64,000 nucleotides of DNA from Conchocele bisecta (taxonomy: Eukaryota; Mollusca; Bivalvia; Lucinida; Thyasiridae): the NCBI GenBank assembly GCA_029237695.1, contig CM055272.1, positions 35,102,791 to 35,166,790 of the forward strand, read 5' to 3'. The position numbers and the translations under genes were made by a program. Below, in pieces: positions 1,475 through 52,045 of this stretch; position 1 is the stretch's first letter; every line of letters starts with the position of its first letter. The notes beneath the pieces are model-generated. The model saw only the letters and a program-made list of their open reading frames with translations, did not search any database and had not been told where the DNA came from.

Positions 1475-4400
1475 TCACACACATAACATCTGCTGCTTTG
1501 CAAGAACAGCGCTTGAGTTGCATTTTCCATTACAGCCACACATGGTAGGAATTTTGACAGGGACCGGTTTTAGCGACTTAAGTGGCAGTAGGGTTCCGTT
1601 TTGGTTGATCCAACCATAATCAATGGGGTCCAACTGACTGGCATCAGCTAATAAGGCAAGAGCATTGCGGAGCACTTAAAATAATCTCCTCAAATATCAT
1701 CGGATGACGCTGGATGTGGGTGGTAGTCCCTCTAACCCTATAACTGAATGCCTGTGGACGTCAAGTCGCAATTGGTCAAATTCAGTTGCAGTGGTTGTGC
1801 TTGTCGCACCGGCCCATACACGGGCGAGATATTTTTCCGCCTGATGTAGCACAGGATACTCACCGAAGCTGGAGAGAAGCATTGCTGGTCTGCATACGAA
1901 TGAGTGCAGCATGTTTTGTGCCCACTTTGCTGTGTGCATCGTCCCCAGTCGTGACATGTGCCTTGATGAGTACACGGCATAACTCCTAGTCTGAGGTACA
2001 TGACATGAAGCGGAATCATCCGTCGCTTCTCTCCAGCCCCGTACTGAACCCAAAACTCCTGCAAACAGCAAACAACCCTCTTTGAACACACTAAGGTAGC
2101 GCAGGAGAAGAATTACAGTATCCGTGTCATTAGACACTACAATAGCTCACTCGCAGCTCCTTCCGACTGCCGAGTGCACGTGAGATATTATGCGACAGTT
2201 TGAAAGATCACTCGCATGTGATCCAGACAGCTTCAGTCTCGCAGATATTAACTCTTCATTGATCACCATTTCACTCAGAACCACGTCCTGTATATCCTGT
2301 TTGTTGAGACTAGATGCCCAGAACTTGTCCAGCTGGTGTGAAATATGCACAGACTCGTCCACGACGGCCAAATCAACAACGCTATCCTCACCAGCTCTAC
2401 GGTTCCGTTCACCCTCCTTGATGCTCAATTCATTGTAGCTATCGAATACTATGTGAGTCATTTCCAGTGTTCGACAAACTGGACGGGCACTCTTCAAAAT
2501 TTCTTGGATGATTTCAACAACGTTTGTAGATATAGACTGGAGATTTGGAAATTTTCGTATTTTCGTCATAAATTCAAGCAAAACGTGTGTTGCTTGTGGA
2601 CTGTCTCGGGTGAATTGGTAATCATCTGAAGTAAGATTAGTTTCCAGCTCAGTGACCATGTTTGCTTTGTCAGGCTTTGTTGTGATTTCGCCAACAAATA
2701 GTTGGGTCGATTGCAGAAGGTCATGCGAATACAGCTCTTCTGGCGACATTCCACGCAGTGTAGCAATTTCTGCCTTCCTCTGTGCAGATGTGATGTCCTG
2801 TGTGGAAACGGTAGTCTTGGTTGGAACAGTATTGGTCTTCGTTGTACACTGTGTGTCAAAGGCCGGAAGATTCGCCTTAGATATGGTGACGCTAAGTTTC
2901 TTAGACCTGACCACGTACCGCTCATTACGGAATTGCCAGTATGCTATGTCACCGTTCTCCAACGCCTTCAGAAGTCTCGCCTTTACGAAGTCATTGACAA
3001 TGTGCTTTGTCACGATGTTGTGGATTGGCACATTTGGCGCCAGAACAATGAAGGGGTTTTCCCGCGCCTTTACAAAGTCCAGCAATCGTGACACATTTCG
3101 GTCGAATACCAAACCCTTTCGGCCATCGTCCTCATGCTGTATTGTCGTTTCCATGTGAGCCATGGGTCGAGCATTGGTGATTAACTGGAAAAGAATGCTG
3201 ATCGCAAGGATCTCATGAAATAGAAGTCCAAACTCGGCTACAACAGCAGCATCTCCAGCGCTCCCAACAATCACGTGTCCACCTGGACCCTGTGAGAATA
3301 TGTTATGTGACTGTTCCTGCTTCATATCCCCTGCCACAGCAGCAAATACCGCACCCGGTCGGTCGATCACAACAAACTGGCCAATACAGAACCGGTTGAG
3401 TGTGGAATAGGTGACCTCCAGAACATGAATGCTCTCCAAGTACCATGATGCGTACCGCAGATAATTGACAGCATCAAACTCACGTAGGATCCCCATCTTC
3501 ACTGTTCCGACATGCAATGGCCAGTTGCTATCACGGTCTGCAACAATCAGCTGTTTGATGATTGCAACGATCTTCCGAAAGTTCATGAAATAATGACACA
3601 ATTCCGAGTTCTCCTGGCACCCTTAAACAAATGTGTTAAATTGTTGACGGAGATCAGCAGCATCAGTGGATACTGCTCAAAATTGGGGACACACCCCTCC
3701 CGCTTCTTCGATTGCAATACATCATTGAGCCCAATGGCTGACTGGACAAAGGGTACAGACGTGTGATCATTGGACTGTCAGAATGCATTCCACATGAGAG
3801 AAACAAGAACCTCTGATACAATAAGCATTCCTGTCAATGACCTGAAGTACTGGCCACCAGAGAGCACAGTTGAAACTGTTTATGGTCCAAAAACCTCACT
3901 TGCAATGAGGGCATCGCTCATATCACTGCGACTTATGTACCTTCCTGCACATCGCAGAAGTACCTTTATGTTAGCAAAGTGAAACATTCCCAACATTGGA
4001 AAAAGGTCATCGAAAGTGTCCGGCTCACTCATGACTATATCAACAACAATGTGATACACACCCTCATCAGAAACTATGGCCATAGTATATTGATTCAACT
4101 GGCGCCGGGATACCTGGAAAGTGGTCAGTGCCTGCGAACAGTGGCATATTCTGTCACAGGAGAAGGGATAACAGGAAGGAAACCAACTCTCATCAGTGGC
4201 ACGTTTGCTGTCGTGACCAGTGCATGAATGTCACCCCAAGGAGGTAGATCGCCAGGAGCAGCAGCTGAGTATGGGAGTCCACAGCGAATAAGTTATATGA
4301 GGAATTCGGTATTGGCTGACTGCTCTACAGCTTCCTCGGCATCCGATAAATGTTCAGTCCATGTTTTCACGGGTTTGTGGTGAGAGATATTTTGAGAAAT

Positions 4401-32351: not shown

Positions 32352-32421
32352 CCGACCTATCATTTTCTGATATACGCCGCAAATTTGAAAATTACAATAC
32401 AGTTAACCCTATAGTGAAACA

Positions 32422-33611
32422 ATGGCGATTGTTACAACAAACTCGGTGGAATCCCACCGACTCGCCGAGGAAATGACCAGCGAAATGACATATGCCGTCC
32501 TACCTGTTACCGTGTTCGTGGGAATCGAGACGTTTTTCGCCTTCTTTGGAAACCTATTGATCCTATACGTGTTCCTGTGGAGATACCATCGGTGTAATTT
32601 CAAGTATTTCGTGATTTGTTTGTCTGTGATCGACCTCACAGGTAGTCTGACCACCATGCCGGGAGAGATTGTGACACAAACACACTGGTATGTCTATCCA
32701 TCCCGGATGCTTTGCAAAGTGAAATCGTTCTGCAACATACTCACTGTTACTGCGTCAGCGATGTGCTTGTTAGTGATATCAGTGGACAGGTATTTGAAGG
32801 TGTGTCGCCCGTTCGGATGGCAAATCAGCACTAGGATAGCAATAATACTATGTCCGGTGATTCTATTACTTTCGGTGTTTATTGCTGTTCCATGCGCCAT
32901 CTTTTGGGGTACCCACAACGAAAAACTTGTGTACAAAGACACAAACATCACCGTCACTGTATGCGAGATTGACCGCGATTTCTTGCATACCAACGGTCCG
33001 TTGATATACATAGTGATAGTTTCTGTAGTGGTCTTAATAGCGATGATCACAATGTCGGTATTGTACGGGTTCATCGTGAAGAAAATGTTTAAAGAGATAA
33101 TTCCAAAAATGAAAGCTCAGTCGTATGAAATACCTAAGGTTATTTCCAGTGACAATGAGTTAATGGATACAAATGTACCAGCTCGTCCACAAGCAACACC
33201 AAGGATGCGTATGTTTGTTCCAGTGGGGACGGCGATGTATCTGGTAGTAATACAACCGATGAGACAACCGCTACATCGGGGCCGAAGCTGGCGTGCAAAC
33301 GGACGACAAAGCAGCGAAATGTCTTTGTAAGACAGAAGACCATTATAATGCTGGTGTTGACTATAGTGTTTGTTGTAACCACAGTTGTATACTTATGTTT
33401 ACTTGCTGTTATCACTACAGACGTGTTGACTGGTATGTCGAATGCGGGAAAGTCCGTATACTTCTTTTTCTTCCGGCTCAACTTCATAAACCACGTGGTC
33501 AACCCATGGGTATACGGGTTTCTAGATCCACTTTTCCGCCAAAATATTAAAGAATTTAAAAATAAGATTGTATCAATATGTTCTGCGTGTCGCAGCCAAA
33601 CACGTAGTTAG
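32422..33611 (+). CDS. rhodopsin-type (class A) GPCR, single exon, one frameshift
   Basis: Seven-helix receptor for an unknown ligand, expected in the plasma membrane and coupled to G proteins. Frame 1 (32422 to about 33180) covers TM1 with GN at residues 43-44, TM2 with Asp71 (LSVIDL), TM3 with Cys98 and a full DRY at 122-124, TM4 with a proline, ECL2 Cys181 and TM5 ending YGFIVKKMF. A second frame (open from 33159) continues ICL3, TM6 (IIMLVLTIVFVVTTVVYL), TM7 with NPWVY and helix 8 (DPLFRQNIKEF), stopping at 33609-33611. One base lost or gained between about 33159 and 33185, in the variable third loop, reconnects them; protein length would be about 395 aa. TM6 lacks the usual CWxP. The start is the ATG before a short N-tail; an upstream frame from 32294 (with an NGS site) might be the true N-terminus after another shift. 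An orphan receptor of a mollusc-expanded type is likely. The frameshift may be real or a consensus error. Confidence 0.8.
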
Positions 33612-43358: not shown

Positions 43359-43367
43359 ATATAATAT
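43359..43367. repeat. left target-site duplication ATATAATAT
   Basis: Nine bases identical to 51419-51427, immediately outside the terminal repeat structure. The length is that expected for Mutator-like elements. Confidence 0.7.
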
Positions 43368-43400
43368 GGCTGGGTCTGCTGACAATTAATTGAATTATTT

Positions 43401-43570
43401 GTCAGCAGCGAAAAAACGACGAAATCGCTGGTGACAATTAATTGTCAGCAGCGAAAAAACGACGAAATCGCTGGTGACAATTGATTGTCAGCAGCAAACA
43501 ATCGGCGAAATCGCTGGTGACAATTGATTGTCAGCAGCGACAAATCGGCGAAATCGCTGGTGACAGTTGG
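43401..43570 (+). repeat. left TIR: four 43-bp tandem units
   Basis: GTCAGCAGCG begins at 43401, 43444, 43487 (GTCAGCAGCA) and 43530, an exact 43-base period. Each unit has GTCAGCAGCG, a (AAAAAACGACG)AAATCGCTGG core and GACAATT(A/G)ATT. Confidence 0.9.
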
Positions 43571-44438
43571 TGCATGTACGGGTGGGCATTGACTCGCTTT
43601 CCTACCCTATTAACATACTACTATTGGCAGTCATATTCTTACAATTTCTGCATTTCAACGGAAGAATATTTTTGCGATTCGTCCGCATGCTGTACTGTGT
43701 ACGATGTTTTGAAAAACTGTACCAGAAAAGCTAGAAAAGTAGGCTGACCCCCAACAAATTTGCAACACAAGGTTTTGTGACTGTTTGAGTACAGTTATAA
43801 ATGTAGAATAACATATCCAAAGTTTTTGGAAATATTCCTGCCAAAACATAAGTATAGACACCAAAATAATGTTCCTATCACAATCCAATACAAAGTTCTA
43901 GCCCTTGACCTACATTCATGGCGGCCATCTTGTATTTATGCAAATTAGGCACTTTCCCCAGGGGTGATTTTTGGGGAATTTTTTTCTGGGTAACAGCACA
44001 CCTATATGAACTTATCTGAGCCCAAACTTGCTTATTATTGAAATGTCTGGGTCTTCGTCAATTTCTACTGTACTATCAATAAAGTTGAAACAAGAAATAC
44101 AATTTTATTATTTCATAAAAATCTATTTCGTCTGCATTTCAAATACCATTACTCCGCCAATATAACTATATACATGTACGTATACTGTATGATGAATTCT
44201 CCACACAACAGAGGCGATATAAATTACAATTAATTATCTCACAAACATGACGTAATAATATGTTCAGTTCTCAACGGAACACGATGTACAGGTAAATATG
44301 AATGATGTGTCGCCTCGTATTTTCTGTCTTTGGTTGCTTTCGACACAATCAGTGTGGAACCATGCTAAACAATTGGCGCATTTAACCATGTCACTGTTGT
44401 ATAAACATCTACAGTCACAAAATATATCAATTATTTAT

Positions 44439-44963
44439 TTACACACTGTCCAAAGGCGAAATTCGTAAACGATGTTTCCGCATGTCCAGCTGATCGAATT
44501 TCATTCTGCACGGATCATTCCCAAGACAGATGGCAACCGCGTAGGCTATTGAATAAAGTCCACAGTCAGACATACCTATTTGTTTTGGAACAGGCATGTA
44601 ATTAATTTTGAGTGAATCTCCGGAATATTTCAAAATTGTACAAATCTGTAATTGTGATTCCATATCTAAAGAACTATAGTAGCTGTCGTAGAAATTAATC
44701 TCTCCAAGTTTGCATCCTACAGTCGAAACGGCGAACCAGTGTCCTTCATTAATACATCCACGAAATAAAATCTGCACCATATCTGTACTCATTTGTTTGA
44801 AGTGTCTCATATTTTCCCTGTAACAAGGTGGCTGAAATCCATTTGTGTTGATAAACTGTTGTTTTAACATATTTTGAGCGCCTTCAATGATGTCGTCTGT
44901 CAACATGTGCCCATTCACGATATCAGACTTGTTCTTACGCGTTAATTCAAATTTGGTGAGTCG
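44439..44963 (-). CDS. Ulp1/C48-type SUMO-protease domain
   Basis: An open segment of 175 codons that ends the composite gene. Ulp1 blocks in order: LTDDIIEGAQNML helix, GHWFAVST (catalytic His), EINFYDSYYSS (Asp), then PKQIGMSDCGLYSIAYAVAI with the oxyanion Gln and the catalytic Cys six residues later, and a MRKHRLR tail. All four catalytic positions are present. Ulp1 enzymes cleave SUMO-like modifiers. Mutator-like elements carrying Ulp1 domains are known in plants (Kaonashi type, from memory). It could be the C-terminal domain of the transposase polypeptide or a separate downstream frame; the coding-like linker at 44964-45372 favours fusion. Confidence 0.85.
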   Translation of the reverse strand, partial: RLTKFELTRKNKSDIVNGHMLTDDIIEGAQNMLKQQFINTNGFQPPCYRENMRHFKQMSTDMVQILFRGCINEGHWFAVSTVGCKLGEINFYDSYYSSLDMESQLQICTILKYSGDSLKINYMPVPKQIGMSDCGLYSIAYAVAICLGNDPCRMKFDQLDMRKHRLRISPLDSV

Positions 44964-45371
44964 TCATTACTTACTAACTGCTTCCTGTTGTTTTGGTTGC
45001 TTATTGTCAGAGGTTTCTATGCCAGTTTCTGGTGATTTGCGTTTTTTTTTCATTATTTGGCGTTGTTTCGATTTACCAGAAAATTCCCAAAAAGGTTTAT
45101 TGGACCCTTTGGTCTACCTCGTCGCGATTTAACGGGTATCAACACTATTCTGTTTCGCATTTCTTCAAATGTCGGAGTTGGAACCACCTCAGTATCGATG
45201 GTAGTGGTTTCAGTTTTAATTTAATTTGCATGTGTCTCTCCATCGCGCGGCAGGTTTCTCACATCCTCCGAATCATCACTGACAATTATTTCAGTTTTAA
45301 TTCCATCGTAATGTACTATTTCATCACTGTTGTCAGGTGTTTTGTTTGTATGGTGTTCTATCGTGACACTA
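44964..45371 (-). pseudogene. broken linker between transposase and Ulp1
   Basis: Three pieces in changing frames read as a charged linker: NSDEIVHYDG and VSDDSEDVRNL, then TAA (45221-45223), EVVPTPTFEEMRNRIV and KSRRGRPKGP (AT-hook-like), a shift in a T-run near 45093, and KKKRKSPETGIETSDNKQP before TGA. The basic and acidic composition argues for former coding function, not an intron. Confidence 0.65.
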
Positions 45372-47003
45372 TTATCGAGATTTGGAGTCTCTATTTTGGA
45401 ATTCTATTTTTTCAAACAGTTCCTTTTCACCACAGGTTGACAGAAATGATGCTACATCCCTGCAAGTAGTGTACGCAAAGTTAAATTTTTCAACCGGTGA
45501 CATGTTGCCCATTTTCTTTGGTTTTGATTGTTTGAATTTGATATTCTTTGGGAGTGTATCAGAAAGAACAGGCGTTTGGTCACTGTCCTTTTTCCACCTG
45601 TCCGGAATTAGACTTGATTCGAATATTGGTAAATGGTGGAACTTTCTGCATACGAAAATGTGACGACAGGGTAATAAGAAATTGCAGTACGTAATACATG
45701 TGCACTTTGCAAAGTCAGATGATACAGTGTTACTGACAGATCCAACACAAACAGTAAAGTCATTATCATTTTTTGTCACCTCATATTCATGTGTTTTCAT
45801 TAGATTTACTTCTTCGTTGAGAATGCTGAATCCCTTACCGTTGCACAGCAGTGAATACTGAACAGCATCTTTGTCCTGGTGATGTACATTTTTTTTTATC
45901 TTCAGGTTCAGATATTGGTTGTATGCAGTTTTAGCAAAAGTGTCTTCAATGAAACGCTGTAAATGTTCTATTGATTCTGGTAGGTCCATGTGTTTTGATA
46001 CATAATGCTTAATCTTTTCATTGTGGCACTCCAACTTGTTGTTAGTGTTGTTATCGTGTGTTTGCAAGCTTTTCCGAAAACGCATCACCCACAGTGCTTG
46101 ACAGTTGTCCCAGTTTCTGTTGAAATATTGAACAAATGTTTCGTCACACTGTGTAAGTTCATCATATGTGTTGTCGTATTCCTCCTGGCTATTGGCATTT
46201 ATTATCCGTTTCACGAGATCAGCGAGGTGAATTTTATCATCGCGTTTAATGTCTAAATCGCTAATCACTTTCTTCAAATATTTACTCACGTGAAACTTAA
46301 ACAATAGAATATTTGCGTGTGGAAATTTTGATCTTATAGATCCAAGTTCGTTCATGTCCTTGTCCACCATGACAATTATTATAGGAGTGGTATCGTTGTG
46401 TTGACAAAAGTAATCCAGTGTTTTGTCAAGATTATCTTTCGTTTCAGACCGTTGGTAACAATATGCAACTGGTATACCCCTACCCTCGTTATCCTCTGTC
46501 ATAATAGTGACTAATGAATATCCCTCTATGTTGGTGTTATATTTGGCGTCCATGAACACTATTTCTGGATATGATTTAAACATGTCTCTCATTTCAGCGG
46601 TTTGTATGAATACTAGTTGAACATGGTCATTTGCATCTACATCTATTATTGTTGTGGCGTCTTCGTGTATCGTTATTTCCTTTAAAACGTCTGTCAGTAT
46701 TTGGCCCTGACTACGACCAGCTTCTTTATCGCGTACAGCATCGTTTTTTATATTATTTATATCTTTTGTTTGGACGGCTTTTCCTGTCTTTTCGCGAATG
46801 AACGACTTAATATTTTTCACACACACTTGTAAATCTAAGAGTGGTTTAACATGCTCCTTTTCAGTGGTCGCTAGCTTCCGGTTTGACACGTAATGTTTAA
46901 ACTCTCCCTTTGACGTGGAATGATTATGTTCGCTTACAAGTTTTGAAATTTTATATTTCATTGTTGATCTGTCCCACTTTAGTCGTACAACTACAGGACA
47001 CAA
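45372..47003 (-). CDS. MULE transposase core with SWIM zinc finger (543-codon open segment)
   Basis: Cuts transposon ends by DDE chemistry. Counting from the first codon of this uninterrupted segment: end of the FAR1-like region with EHNH (25-28); helical region; MULE core with Asp152 (IVFMDAKYNTN), Asp214 (IIIVMVDKDMNE) and Glu325 (NNKLECHNEKIK); and a SWIM finger CTC...PCRHIF (Cys434, Cys436, Cys446, His448). Upstream, 47004-47087 continues in the same frame (FSCKHAVKPRIRGDGKRP), separated from 47091-47327 only by one TAA codon. The order resembles animal ZSWIM and plant FAR1/FHY3 proteins, both derived from MULEs. Catalytic residues are intact although the full gene is broken. Confidence 0.9.
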   Translation of the reverse strand: MCPVVVRLKWDRSTMKYKISKLVSEHNHSTSKGEFKHYVSNRKLATTEKEHVKPLLDLQVCVKNIKSFIREKTGKAVQTKDINNIKNDAVRDKEAGRSQGQILTDVLKEITIHEDATTIIDVDANDHVQLVFIQTAEMRDMFKSYPEIVFMDAKYNTNIEGYSLVTIMTEDNEGRGIPVAYCYQRSETKDNLDKTLDYFCQHNDTTPIIIVMVDKDMNELGSIRSKFPHANILLFKFHVSKYLKKVISDLDIKRDDKIHLADLVKRIINANSQEEYDNTYDELTQCDETFVQYFNRNWDNCQALWVMRFRKSLQTHDNNTNNKLECHNEKIKHYVSKHMDLPESIEHLQRFIEDTFAKTAYNQYLNLKIKKNVHHQDKDAVQYSLLCNGKGFSILNEEVNLMKTHEYEVTKNDNDFTVCVGSVSNTVSSDFAKCTCITYCNFLLPCRHIFVCRKFHHLPIFESSLIPDRWKKDSDQTPVLSDTLPKNIKFKQSKPKKMGNMSPVEKFNFAYTTCRDVASFLSTCGEKELFEKIEFQNRDSKSR

Positions 47004-47090
47004 AAAAGCTAGATAACTTTGTACTGGGCGTTTTCCATCCCCACGAATGCGCGGTTTTACTGCATGTTTACAAGAAAAGACAATTAATTA

Positions 47091-47954
47091 AAAAGGAAAG
47101 TAGTCATTAGAACCTCCTTCTTTCGTACTGCAAGTTATTTTCATTGGGTGGTTATTCAGTTTGGTCCATACAGAGAACGATTCCTGGAATGAGTTATACG
47201 TTTTGAACTCTTGTGTTTCGTAAGTGTCACCAACGGCGTCGTCATTGTTATATTGGTTTAGCAATGCAATTAGTTCGTTCACTGAATAATTATTATCATT
47301 TATATCTCCAACGTGTTTCGGTTTCACAGGTGAAGAAGTTTCAATTTTCTCTTTGGATTCGTCGTTTTTTTAGCATCATTTATAATTGAGTCGGTTTCCT
47401 GCATTAGCGATTTGCTCGTATCATCTGAATTTGTGTTAACAGCACTGATACTCCAGTCAATTTGACGTTGTTCAGTGTTATTTAAAGTGCTTTCGTGTGT
47501 AGTTGTTGATATATCAATCCCGTTGGTTAGATCATTGTCCCATATTATCGTCGAGTTGTTTACTTTCTTCCGGTTAGATATCGATTTTGATTTTCCACCA
47601 CCATGCATTTGCTTTGCAAATGTTAGTTTCATTGGCCGGTTATTAACAGTTTCAAATGATGATGTTACTACGTCTGTATTACAATCAGCTTCAGAATCGG
47701 AGTTGTCCATATCAGCATCCACAGTCAATGGTGAAAACTTATTGTATTCTACAAATGTGGGAATGAGATAGCACTTCTGGTGTGTACGTTTGGGTTTCTT
47801 ATTCTCGTTAACTGATGTGGCAGATACATGTCTCTGTTTTAACTTTTCGCCACGTTTTACATTGCGCCCGATGAGTGTTTGACCGTTGTCTATGCGCATA
47901 TGAGGATTGGAGGTTGGAGACACACGAGTGACACACGGAACGTGTACGGAATGT

Positions 47955-47995
<41 letters not shown>

Positions 47996-48040
47996 ATGTG
48001 GTTTGGAGATGGGGGACACATGAGTGGTATTTCCTGTTTC
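47091..48040 (-). pseudogene. N-terminal linker and start of FAR1-like region, one homopolymer frameshift
   Basis: From the hexanucleotide repeat onward: SPTSNPHMRIDNGQTLIGRN, a Ser/Asn/Asp-rich stretch, then SIINDAKK, where a run of seven A shifts the frame (about 47366). Adding one A gives DESKEKIETSSPVKPKHVG and joins the next frame to 47091: YETQEFKTYNSFQESFSVW and LNNHPMKITCS, the usual opening of a FAR1/ZSWIM DNA-binding region. The single-base loss in a homopolymer is a likely sequencing or consensus error. Confidence 0.7.
47955..48000. repeat. hexanucleotide repeat (GTCGGC)n in coding sequence
   Basis: About seven to eight perfect GTCGGC units. On the minus strand all three frames are open: (Pro-Thr)n in the transposase frame, poly-Arg or (Asp-Ala)n in the others. 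It sits between the SGNH part and the rest, next to a frameshift near 48040. Confidence 0.85.
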
Positions 48041-48334
48041 CTAACTTCCTTCACTATCGACTCGATATTCCGAACCACAGTTTCAGTACCCACAAAACTC
48101 AAATGTAATCCATCAAGTGCCAACAGTTTTGTATTGATGCTTCCATTGTTGCGAACAAACTGGGAATGGTCCATGAATGTTAGGTCTTTAGTGATATACT
48201 GAGCTCTTCGAAGTGCCGCATTCACAACATTGATTTTCCCTGTGATGTCCCGGTGCTCATCGTATGTGTCGTGGGTGCCGGTTTGTCGCTTGCTTGGAAG
48301 TCTGGGTAGAATGCTGGATATGACGACATGGGCC
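48041..48334 (-). CDS. SGNH hydrolase domain, exon 3 part
   Basis: After the acceptor TTTCAG, the frame continues AHVVISSILPR (the usual strand after block III), VNAALRRAQ, a FVRNNGSINTKLL segment and LALDGLHLSFVGTETVVRNI, where the Asp and His of DGLHLS are the catalytic pair. It completes the fold begun by exons 1 and 2. SGNH enzymes are esterases or lipases; such domains are known in ORF1 of CR1/L2-type retroelements, so transposon association has precedent, but I know of none fused to a MULE. Confidence 0.75.
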
Positions 48335-48699
48335 CTGAAATGATAGAACTTGTTAATCCGAGTGTACATGTATAAGTGTAGACCAGGAAGTCCGTCCGCC
48401 CAATTACTTCCGTCTTTGTAGCCATTGTATTATTTATTTATATGTAATCATTGGTAATAAATATAGAGCCAATAAATATTTGTTTTGCAGGTTTGGAGTT
48501 GTGCACAATCTTGTCAACACCTGTATCTTGGTGGCCATCTTGAATTAAGTATTACATCTGTGTCTAAGGAGACAAACAACATAGAACACCACTATAAATC
48601 AACACTATTTTGGACAAAATTAGGGTGGGACCGGTGGGCAATTCGCAATATAATGGACATGCAGAATGTTGACACCGTGACGGTGATTTGAAAACGCAC

Positions 48700-48806
48700 G
48701 TTGGATTAACGTCTTTGATCCCATAAAACAACTTCTCAAATCCCTCGAGGAGATCGCCTACTCGGCTGGTTGGAATGTCATTTGTACCACAAAGTACAAC
48801 GATTAC
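48700..48806 (-). CDS. SGNH hydrolase domain, exon 2
   Basis: Acceptor TTCTGTTTCAG, then VIVVLCGTNDIPTSRVGDLL and EGFEKLFYGIKDVNP; donor GTGCGT leaves phase 2. GTNDI is SGNH block III with the conserved Asn. Joining to exon 3 recreates one Thr codon. Confidence 0.75.
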
Positions 48807-49226
48807 CTGAAACAGAATTAACATAAATTAGTATAGGATGTGATATGTGAAATAAAGACACAAGCTCTATCTCAAAATCCAAAATGGCGGCCATCTTGGA
48901 TTAAAACAAAAAGTGCCATCGGGTAGAATTTTGCACACCCACCTAAAATTATCATCTTACACCCTTCTGAACAAAAACAAGTAAACTGAGAAAACAACTT
49001 TATACTCCGTTTCCACCCTCCCGATATAATGACCAATATTCATCCTGACTATCAGGATCTAATCTGTTTATTTGTTATAATTTGTCTAAATCGTTAATTA
49101 CGAAGAGTCCAGGGTAACCAAATCTGCGGATTTGTCAGTTTTCTGCGGATTTTCACCCATAAAACGGATCTACGGATCAACTTTACAATCTACGGATTTT
49201 TAAATATAATTCAAATATTTACGACA

Positions 49227-49315
49227 TTTTTTTCTTATTTCTCTGCAAAAATGTATATATTGCGACCCCCATGGGGTTGCAATATATACTTTTTGTGGAG
49301 AAATAAGAAAAAAGA
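49227..49315. repeat. hairpin inside intron 1 of the transposon gene
   Basis: TTTCTTATTTCTC(T/C)(G/A)CAAAAA and TATATATTGC arms mirror each other over about 40 bases around CGACCCCCATGGGGTTG. It may be a MITE nested in the transposon. Confidence 0.75.
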
Positions 49316-49982
49316 AATAGTTGTTTGTGGCTCAGTAACTTGTAATCATTTTAGTCTTGGGAAGTGAAAAATTCAGCTCTGAATATACAATTGAATCTAA
49401 CATTCAAACAATGTCTGTACAACTGTACTTTTAAACTTTATACTTATAAAGTACATCATACTACATGTATAGCATTTACGATCTTAGTATGGTACTGGGG
49501 CATCGAAATGGTTGTCCATTCATTACAGTTATATAACACATACCACACTGGACTGTGTATTCTTAATGGGGGTCAGACTGTCTGCTGCTAGCGGATGTAC
49601 CCTGCTGATCTGACTGATAAGACCTTGTACAACTGGCTTCCCGGGAGTAGGCATATAGGCATATTGCAATCACAGAGTTTTACAGATATGATAATCTACG
49701 TAGTCGGTTCAGGCTCGGAACAATTTAAGTAGCATAGATAAGTATCATAAAGCGCAATAATTATTTACGACAAGACAACCAAATATCATCGAAAATCCAG
49801 ATGTATGGATAAAATAGATGACGTGTATTTGTAGACCAGCATAGGCCCTGACCAATTCAACATATTCAAGAGCCATTGATGTGCAAGCTCTGAATATATC
49901 TGCAAGAAAGACAAGTAGGATTTATCATAAAAAAGGACAATAGTCATTGATTGCTGTGTGAATAACTAGGATAACTACTTAC

Positions 49983-50135
49983 CGAAGCTGCAGCTACTTC
50001 TTTCTGGACTGCGTCAAACCCAAGCAAATCGTTCACTTTGCACCCGGAGAAACATAGCGATTTAGTTTTGTCAACAGTGACATACTCCTTAAAGTATCTG
50101 AATTGACTATGTCCGATGATTAAGGTGTTTTCCAT
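49983..50135 (-). CDS. SGNH hydrolase domain, exon 1 with start codon
   Basis: ATG at 50135-50133 opens MENTLIIGHSQFRYFKE, SGNH block I with the nucleophile Ser in GHS (usually GDS), followed by FSGCKVNDLLGFDAVQKEV. It ends at a consensus donor GTAAGT after exactly 51 codons. The intron to exon 2 is about 1.18 kb. Confidence 0.75.
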
Positions 50136-51268
50136 TGTTGATATAGACTAATAACTTACAAAAGTCCAAATTATATGTATCCACACAAAATATGAAAGAA
50201 AATCACAAATTATAAAGCGATATAACATTAAATTCAATTTAACTATTGTGAAACAACAACTAAAAATATCTTTATAATGCATACGTGGGAGGGTCTAATA
50301 TTGCCTGATTGCCAATTACATTCTTAAAAATCGCCAATTGAACTACATCATATTGTTGGTGCAACATTGGCCACACTTTTACTCAAATTAGATAATTAAT
50401 GGTCTCTTTTTGATTAGCAGAAGCCACACTGTACGAGCAGGCTGTCCAATTAGCTGGGATCACAGATCAACGTGATTTGCAACATTGTGTTGCGAAACTG
50501 TATGGTATCATGTAATCAGACTTTTAACTACATCATGTGAATGGAAGTGTGTATGAAATACCCCGCTCCCTCCACAGCGGGTGATAGACGACGTGTATGG
50601 AGGAACCGGGATTGTTAATGTATAGACCAGATCAATATGTGGAATCACTGAACTGCATCTGCTTTGGTGGATTATATCGAATGTTAAGATCATACGAAAT
50701 GATACATAATTATTATTATTATATCGTCGAATTCTCACTTGTCCGGCGGCAGCTCTACATATATTCTCCTGATATCGATATAATTGCTGATGGAGGTGCT
50801 CTTCAGATGGCACAATGTCACAGGAGCTGTCACCTGTATATACATGTATTATTGTTTGTATGTCAATTTGTTTTCTGTATTATTATGTTTGTTGTATGTA
50901 CATAACTATGCTCTGAGCTCTCCTATTTGGAGGAAATAAAGGAATATATATATATTCACAGATAATTACTGTCTATTCTTTTGTTCGCACTCACAATAAA
51001 TACAAACGTCTAACTCGTCAAATAAGTAATGGTTCCTAATTAAATGCCCGTGTGTAATAGACTAAGAAACAGACAAAAGACAGTAAACATCAAACTAATG
51101 CTACCGCCACTTTTAACACCTGCTTAAACAATTTTTAGGATATGACTATGTTCATGGATTGATTGAATAGGGGTTAACGTCCAATTTTCGGACACCGAGG
51201 TCAAATGGGTCGAATCCCGTATTCACACATAGGGAGGAGTAAATCCAAAAATCAGAGCTCAATATTTA
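50136..51268. other. 5' non-coding part of the transposon
   Basis: Presumed promoter region of the minus-strand gene; no clear TATA/Inr pair can be assigned. A plus-strand frame of about 100 codons (50597-50905) is followed by AATAAA at about 50935, but the peptide has no recognisable features and I do not call it. Confidence 0.45.
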
Positions 51269-51412
51269 CAATTGTCACCAGCGATTTCGTCGTTTTTTCG
51301 CTCCTGACAATCAATTGTCACCAGCGATTTCTTCGTTTATTCGCTCCTGACAATCAATTGTCAGCAGCGATTTCTTCGTTTATTCGCTGGTGACAATTAA
51401 TTGTCAGCAGCC
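51269..51412 (-). repeat. right TIR: three 43-bp tandem units
   Basis: CAATTGTCA(C/G)CAGCG begins at 51269, 51312 and 51355, and TAATTGTCAGCAGC at 51398, again spaced by 43 bases. These are the reverse complement of the left units, with AAATCGCTGG appearing as CCAGCGATTT. Confidence 0.9.
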
Positions 51413-51418
51413 ACTCCG

Positions 51419-51427
51419 ATATAATAT
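51419..51427. repeat. right target-site duplication ATATAATAT
   Basis: Identical to 43359-43367. Confidence 0.7.
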
Positions 51428-51808: not shown

Positions 51809-52045
51809 GGGGACCGTTTCACTAAACTTCATACGACTAAAATGTTCGTAAGTGCAAACTTGTGATTGTCTGTAAATTTGACATTAACAATGCTTTCTTG
51901 TAAACAATTACTGGATTTACATTTATTGAGCATAGGCTGCATATGCTGCCTATGCTCAATAGATGTAAATCCATCAATTTTCAGACGATCATAAATTTGC
52001 ACTTACGAAAATTTTAGTCGTACGAAGTTTAGTGAAACGGCCCCC
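51809..52045. mobile_element. MITE family D, complete copy
   Basis: Long palindrome: GGGGACCGTTTCACTAAACT, CGACTAAAATGTTCGTAAG and TTACATTTATTGAGCATA, mirrored with few changes and ending GGCCCCC. Relatives: 57806-57967 and 63236-63464, plus one arm only at 53465-53510. Confidence 0.85.

Follow-up and report, generated by a model that had tools for sequence, protein, structure and literature searches.

The stretch of DNA analysed here, hereafter the window, comprises 64,000 nucleotides of the bivalve Conchocele bisecta (contig CM055272.1, positions 35,102,791 to 35,166,790). It holds an 8,051-bp element at 43368-51418, with a degraded gene on the minus strand; judged by its sequence, this is a no longer functional copy of what was an autonomous Mutator-like element (MULE), a DNA transposon. 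Open frames follow one another on the minus strand from 50135 down to 44267. They encode, in order, an SGNH esterase part in three exons, a linker, a transposase with FAR1-like, MULE and SWIM regions, an AT-hook-like motif, an Ulp1 protease and a PHD finger. Sister copies and related proteins make it almost certain that everything from SGNH to PHD belongs to one fused gene. A first-pass annotation had described SGNH, FAR1, MULE, SWIM and Ulp1 in this order, on one strand of one element, and both the profile matches and the order of the tblastn matches bear this out, with FAR1 and SWIM weak in the window. The extent given there, 44439..50135, does lie inside the element, but the element is wider, and the PHD finger at about 44267-44425 had been overlooked. 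The parts of the gene are listed here from its start to its end.

49983..50135, minus strand: SGNH exon 1, with the ATG, the Ser block GHSQ, the Gly block FSGC and the donor gtaagt
48700..48806, minus strand: next SGNH exon, with the Asn block GTND, an acceptor cag and a donor gt
48040..48334, minus strand: last SGNH exon ("exon 4"), with ILPR, the Asp-His block DGLH and the acceptor ttcag
47370..48040, minus strand: linker with a CGACGC/TP repeat tract; in sister copies C2 and C7 no stop separates it from SGNH
47594..47608, minus strand: M-H-G-G-G, candidate Ulp1 cleavage site, from motif comparison
46890..47222, minus strand: approximate extent of a FAR1/ZSWIM3_N-like DNA-binding region, interrupted in frame by a stop at 47088
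46305..46667, minus strand: MULE RNase H-like transposase domain (PF21056/PF10551), with the first Asp in FMDAKYN
45650..45710, minus strand: SWIM-type CxC..CxH motif (approximate), read from the sequence
45100..45130, minus strand: AT-hook-like RRGRPKG (approximate), a motif read from the sequence
44439..44963, minus strand: Ulp1/C48 protease domain (PF02902, alignment, model), including its His, Asp, Gln and Cys
44267..44425, minus strand: PHD finger at the C-terminal end of the gene (PF00628, 1.6e-5, over the cut-off)
44104..44109, minus strand: AATAAA, a possible poly(A) signal, about 160 bases past the PHD stop

The ends of the element are those of a MULE. The terminal inverted repeats are long (150-202 bp) and built of 43-bp subunits, and they are flanked by an exact duplication of 9 bp, in agreement with the target duplications of MULEs, which measure 8-11 bp and mostly 9 (PMC6446971, table). 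The repeat analysis itself detected inverted subunits at 43393-43569 and 51269-51418. Among 200,000 random site pairs in the neighbourhood, equal flanking 9-mers occurred at a frequency of 1e-5.

43359..43367, no strand: target-site duplication, left copy, 9 bp, ATATAATAT
43368..43569, plus strand: left terminal inverted repeat, 43-bp tandem subunits (repeat families D1 and D2, inverted pairs I1-I4)
51269..51418, minus strand: right terminal inverted repeat, 43-bp subunits (repeat/inverted-pair analysis)
51419..51427, no strand: target-site duplication, right copy, 9 bp, ATATAATAT

A search of the 1.89-Gb genome of the same species returned at least 19 match rows, which we read as four copies, including that of the window, plus divergent relatives. 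We compared the sister copies C2, C7 and C9 with the window copy, and also looked at the divergent family L023 of the same genome and at L024. The outer ends of the three sister copies are those of the window copy to within a base or two. C2 has an exact 9-bp duplication of its own, ATATAAATT, so that two of the four copies carry one; the flanking 9-mers are equal at seven of nine bases in C7 and at five of nine in C9. Relatives of the element were absent from the viral contigs and from the prokaryote genome contigs searched. In the window copy itself, the frame shifts between SGNH and linker and again in an A-run near 47367; besides the stop at 47088, more frameshifts and stops lie between 45390 and 44420.

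The three SGNH exons join with GT and AG at their splice sites, and the joined product carries the Ser, Gly, Asn and His blocks in the order typical of SGNH/GDSL enzymes (GHSQ, FSGC, GTND, DGLH), block I being GHS and not GDS. The joined sequence matches PF13472 with an E-value of 2.9e-6 but with 28.3 bits, under the cut-off of 32.9. Its best sequence match in the PDB, by phmmer, is the esterase of the ZfL2-1 open reading frame 1 (ORF1) protein, 4c1b (1.8e-4). Exon 1 is present in all four copies, at 98% in C2 and with 96% of residues shared in C7 and C9, where it is situated past additional intron-1 sequence. The GTND exon is 99-100% identical in the three sister copies and its donor in C2 reads gtgagt. 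An exon-like frame at 49899-49700 was considered as a further SGNH exon and dropped, since exon 1 joins the GTND exon in phase. Within intron 1 lies a palindromic hairpin (49228-49313), also present in the sister copies. The additional sequence in C7 and C9 comprises about 2 kb, 96-99% alike between them, at window position 48986/48987 (loci L020/L028 and L022/L029). This shared stretch carries a different further insertion in each of the two copies; that in C9 has a reverse-transcriptase-like frame on the opposite strand (L020, 7066-9934), a call made by eye.

That the SGNH part and the transposase are read as one gene can be followed stepwise through the copies. No stop separates the last SGNH exon from the linker in C2 or in C7, where the frame slips and then recovers in the repeat tract. 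In C9, a 1,026-aa open frame runs from the linker through FAR1-MULE-SWIM up to the AT-hook-like motif. C7 is in turn open from upstream of the AT-hook across Ulp1 and most of the PHD finger, and a 125-aa frame in C9 begins late in Ulp1 and continues across PHD to the stop; PHD is also in frame with Ulp1 in C2. In L023, about 47-52% identical in the transposase, a single frame runs from the linker through FAR1 into the first part of the transposase. On the gene strand of the window copy, neither AATAAA nor ATTAAA was found between the last SGNH exon and the transposase; the other occurrences lie in introns and within the transposase and Ulp1 parts. The check put forward with the initial proposal, for a stop or poly(A) site between SGNH and transposase, thus supports the single-gene fusion in sister copies and relatives; the window copy is itself interrupted by stops and frameshifts. 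A scan for bacterial promoters found 3 against 3.6 expected and is not informative on animal promoters. An intron excising the repeat tract between SGNH and linker was rejected, as the tract contains no stop in either C2 or C7.

The differing frames of SGNH and linker in the window copy and in C9 would fit two genes or transcripts, SGNH having its own gene ahead of a standard MULE-Ulp1-PHD gene and the two being fused only by gene predictors. We regard this as highly improbable in view of the reading through in C2 and C7, of the missing poly(A) signal and of the proteins of other genomes. A second protein search gave 14 proteins including the query, eight of which extend upstream of FAR1. P0001, P0003, P0006, P0007, P0008 and P0010 are predicted joined to the transposase, as is P0004 from just past the Asp-His block; the first five start in the C-terminal half of SGNH. 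P0006 (1,445 aa) runs from this half through to PHD in one predicted protein. P0010, which stands for 72 member sequences and is annotated in the tick Rhipicephalus microplus as uncharacterized protein LOC142784443, holds a complete SGNH, over the PF13472 cut-off with 34.3 bits, together with the transposase. The five proteins with the C-terminal half only gave no match to this profile. Searched against the window by tblastn, the proteins of other genomes align to the same parts in the same order. A third protein search, with an alignment as query, returned P0006, P0007 and two distant proteins, perhaps as repeat-rich linkers consumed the search words.

The relatives also bear on whether the SGNH part is a host gene fragment taken up by chance, with no role in transposition. 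MULEs are known to capture gene fragments (PMC6446971), and an SGNH gene mobilised by a Helitron is on record (PMC4021074). Against such a capture, the same join recurs in relatives whose SGNH is only 23-42% identical to that of the window, with the Asp-His block present in seven of seven rows. Five relatives match the last SGNH exon by tblastn (P0003, 1.7e-15; P0008, 5.6e-15; P0001, 1.6e-11; P0006, 1.2e-8; P0007, 5.0e-8), while the SGNH of P0010 had no tblastn match on the window. Moreover, the divergent family L023 of the same genome has SGNH exon 1 at the corresponding end (51% identity, tblastn 5.5e-9); none of the other SGNH exons was found in L023, and no credible SGNH in L024. P0006 and P0007 start with FRAQ at the position of the window 3' splice site, which is translated FRAH, and this coincidence suggests that the intron before the last SGNH exon is probably shared with them. 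As the join is kept across distant relatives, it is probably useful to the element, and we give chance capture very little credence.

The core of the transposase matches PF21056 with 4.6e-31 and 107.9 bits (cut-off 27.2) and PF10551 with 3.8e-9 and 37.3 bits (cut-off 27.6). MULE transposases have a CxxH motif between the second Asp and the Glu; at this position P0001 and C9 read LLCKFHV versus LLFKFHV in the window copy. The FAR1 region is weak in the window (PF03101, 0.06; ZSWIM3_N, 0.014) and over the cut-off in P0006 (2.2e-6). PF04434, the SWIM profile, has no match in the window frame, where SWIM is a reading of the motif, and stays below the cut-off in relatives (P0001, 0.024; P0002, 0.0014). 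The RRGRPKG motif we take to be AT-hook-like. Downstream, Ulp1 matches PF02902 with 1.8e-6 and 28.4 bits (cut-off 20.7), and all six aligned rows share its His, Asp, Gln and Cys. A predicted model of this frame (predicted local distance difference test, pLDDT, 77.6) has the shape of Ulp1/SENP/NEDP1 proteases, with yeast Ulp1 (1euv) first in Foldseek. P0002, P0005, P0006, P0009 and P0013 match both Ulp1 and PHD of the window by tblastn, and P0011 matches Ulp1.

SENP/Ulp1 enzymes cut after GG in SUMO precursors, and a GG motif recurs in the linker upstream of this protease. The linkers between SGNH and FAR1 are poorly conserved and vary in length. We compared nine of them (window, P0001, P0003, P0004, P0006, P0007, P0008, P0010 and P0012) and found GG followed by G or C in all nine, where composition predicts 0.6. 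When 84,000 patterns AB[CD] were compared, in which two letters are fixed and the third may be either of two, GG[GC] was the only one present in every linker; the runner-up occurs in eight, with 3.4 expected. In eight of the nine, M or L stands two residues before GG, as in (M/I/L)XGG-X, the site cut by the adenovirus protease adenain (PMC7464072). The linker of L023, held out from motif finding, has KMIGGS as its one GG; with it, GG is kept in 10/10 linkers and (M/I/L)xGG fits nine. Within the family itself, the window copy, C7 and C9 read MHGGG. The distance from the motif to the FAR1 Trp shifts from 24-27 residues in P0006, P0007, P0010 and P0012 to 92 in L023 and 144-186 in the rest. In the AlphaFold model of P0010, low confidence covers the linker (173-560) and ends at GGG. 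Other features of the linkers include a gap in the repeat tract by which the window differs from C2 and C7, and, in these two copies, the expansion of a tract matching window 47900-47971 into tandem repeats of 60-72 bp. The linker of P0006 is also repeat-rich and unrelated to that tract. By eye, we noticed a SYADVVRF-like motif upstream of the GG site in P0001, P0003, P0004 and P0008, and N[RK]FSxL, likewise upstream, in the same four and in the window (NKFSPL, near 47735).

Our reading of the whole, which we hold to be somewhat probable, is that of a single-gene MULE polyprotein, from SGNH to PHD, whose Ulp1 cuts a GG site in the linker. As for the cut itself, the comparison of motifs puts somewhat less than an even chance on Ulp1 cleaving the chain after the conserved (M/L/I)xGG and so freeing the SGNH part from the transposase. 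Since protease and GG site share one chain, self-processing is the simplest reading. The first-pass annotation suggested a protein that could couple transposition to deSUMOylation and to lipid or ester hydrolysis; in our view Ulp1 would in the first place cut the polyprotein of the element itself. In the same fused gene, Ulp1 might instead act in trans, with the SUMO or ubiquitin carried by host proteins as its target, in repair or silencing, the GG being an unrelated conserved turn or binding motif. Bao et al. (2010, PMC2836005) propose a trans role of this kind for the Ulp1 and OTU domains of transposases, and the model of the window Ulp1 is nearest to SUMO and NEDD8 proteases. However, such a role does not account for a motif that persists while its position varies and the rest of the linker is poorly conserved. 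The two roles are also compatible, as adenain has both (PMC7464072). We therefore see action in trans with an unrelated GG as a real but lesser prospect.

Several observations weigh against a self-cleaving fused protein. All four copies are damaged. In C2, an insertion splits the last SGNH exon and the frame is lost further along the linker, and this decayed copy reads MHGWG. C7 has shifts in the linker repeats and a stop right before the GG motif. In C9, SGNH and linker are out of frame, through a lesion unlike that of the window, and Ulp1 carries an insertion. The differences among sister copies show no purifying selection (nonsynonymous/synonymous: SGNH 16/2, with exon 1 of C2 only; linker 31/13; transposase 118/19), as expected of dead copies; being uninformative on selection, they leave constraint to be argued from the distant relatives only. 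Among these, a complete SGNH joined to the transposase in one predicted protein was seen only in P0010; this protein stops short of Ulp1 and is possibly a spliced gene model. AlphaFold left its SGNH unresolved, with pLDDT blocks of 27-54 over that region, and P0012 extends upstream of FAR1 without a recognisable SGNH. Regarding the motif, GG was noticed by eye before the pattern control was run, and the linker rows are related, in about three lineages of the tree, so the nine-of-nine count is not a probability. Such a motif is found in 5% of shuffles of the L023 linker, and the full motif has a chance of about 5% in each of the two tick linkers, where extra GG pairs, including LVGG, mean that the site is not unique. 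Finally, P0006 has Q at P4 and L023 has S after GG.

If the polyprotein reading is correct, the FAR1-like region and the AT-hook would bind the 43-bp subunits of the ends, by analogy with their families, and the RNase H-like domain would cut the element out and reinsert it with a 9-bp duplication, as MULEs do. Cleavage by Ulp1 would then let the SGNH part and the transposase act separately. For SGNH, our best guess is binding to membranes or acyl groups, as for the esterase of the L2 ORF1 protein; the ZfL2-1 enzyme binds acidic lipids and hydrolyses esters (PMC3905857). The PHD finger of P0005 has its best PDB matches among the Pcl, PHF8, JmjC demethylase and PHF2 chains, and the finger may thus read histone H3. 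That it reads a histone mark and thereby steers insertion or expression we find doubtful. More tentative than the cleavage, though less doubtful than a chromatin role for PHD, is the proposal that this would be the first DNA transposase to act as a self-cleaving polyprotein, in the manner of viral ones, in which a built-in Ulp1 releases an SGNH esterase at (M/L/I)xGG; away from the nucleus-bound transposase, the freed esterase would perhaps work on membranes or acylated proteins. The join extends the known components of cut-and-paste transposons by an esterase. Cutting of the element's own protein offers a possible reason for the presence of Ulp1 in transposases and, if true, would link virus-like polyprotein processing to DNA transposons.

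In the literature searched, which left Repbase reports and most subscription journals outside its coverage, no SGNH-MULE fusion was found. Animal Mutator transposases with Ulp1 and PHD have been described before. The first-pass annotation noted Ulp1 with MULEs from plants; it is not confined to them, being reported from the Mutator elements of two animals, hydra and lancelet, in a study that also aligned the Ulp1 and PHD of Ginger1 and Mutator transposases (Bao et al., 2010, PMC2836005, Fig. 1e). Those animal Mutator elements combine a MULE transposase with Ulp1 and PHD, as here; unlike here, SGNH and a GG cut site are not mentioned in the accessible parts of that report, a difference drawn from its descriptions. 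Ginger1 transposases have a similar C-terminal Ulp1/PHD module, with PHD in one of them, but a Gypsy-integrase-like core, whereas the core here is that of a MULE by Pfam and no integrase profile is among the window matches.

Other known systems share single parts with the element. GDSL esterases are known from retroelements (PMC5408684, PMC6431247), and in L2/CR1 elements such as ZfL2-1 (4c1b, PMC3905857) SGNH also sits in the first protein of the element. Unlike the element here, ZfL2-1 is a retrotransposon, and the available text describes neither transposase nor Ulp1 for it. The platyfish SGNH gene moved by a Helitron (PMC4021074) likewise places SGNH on a DNA transposon, but as a captured gene and on a Helitron. 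Rehavkus is MULE-like, with 9-bp duplications, a PHD finger and a minisatellite near an end (PMC6446971). By its description, however, PHD lies within the transposase domain and the minisatellite before the 3' inverted repeat; here PHD is C-terminal, after Ulp1, and the repeats are the ends themselves. Neither Ulp1 nor SGNH is described for Rehavkus in the accessible part of that source. The same survey of MULEs, by Dupeyron et al. (PMC6446971), records additional domains including PHD, SWIM, FAR1, OTU and SET, and the words GDSL, C48 and peptidase are absent from the text as available. Adenain, with its Ulp1-like fold, processes the proteins of its own virus (PMC7464072), much as we propose for Ulp1 here, but is a viral maturation protease without fusion to a transposase.

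Elsewhere in the window, a 491-aa open frame on the minus strand (2147-3622) has no Pfam match at 0.01. A rhodopsin-type receptor gene lies on the plus strand at 32407-33611 (PF00001, 2.4e-28), in two overlapping frames that may reflect a frameshift or an intron. Just outside the element, at 51809-52045, two inverted 70-nt arms, 90% complementary and 97 nt apart, perhaps belong to another small transposon.

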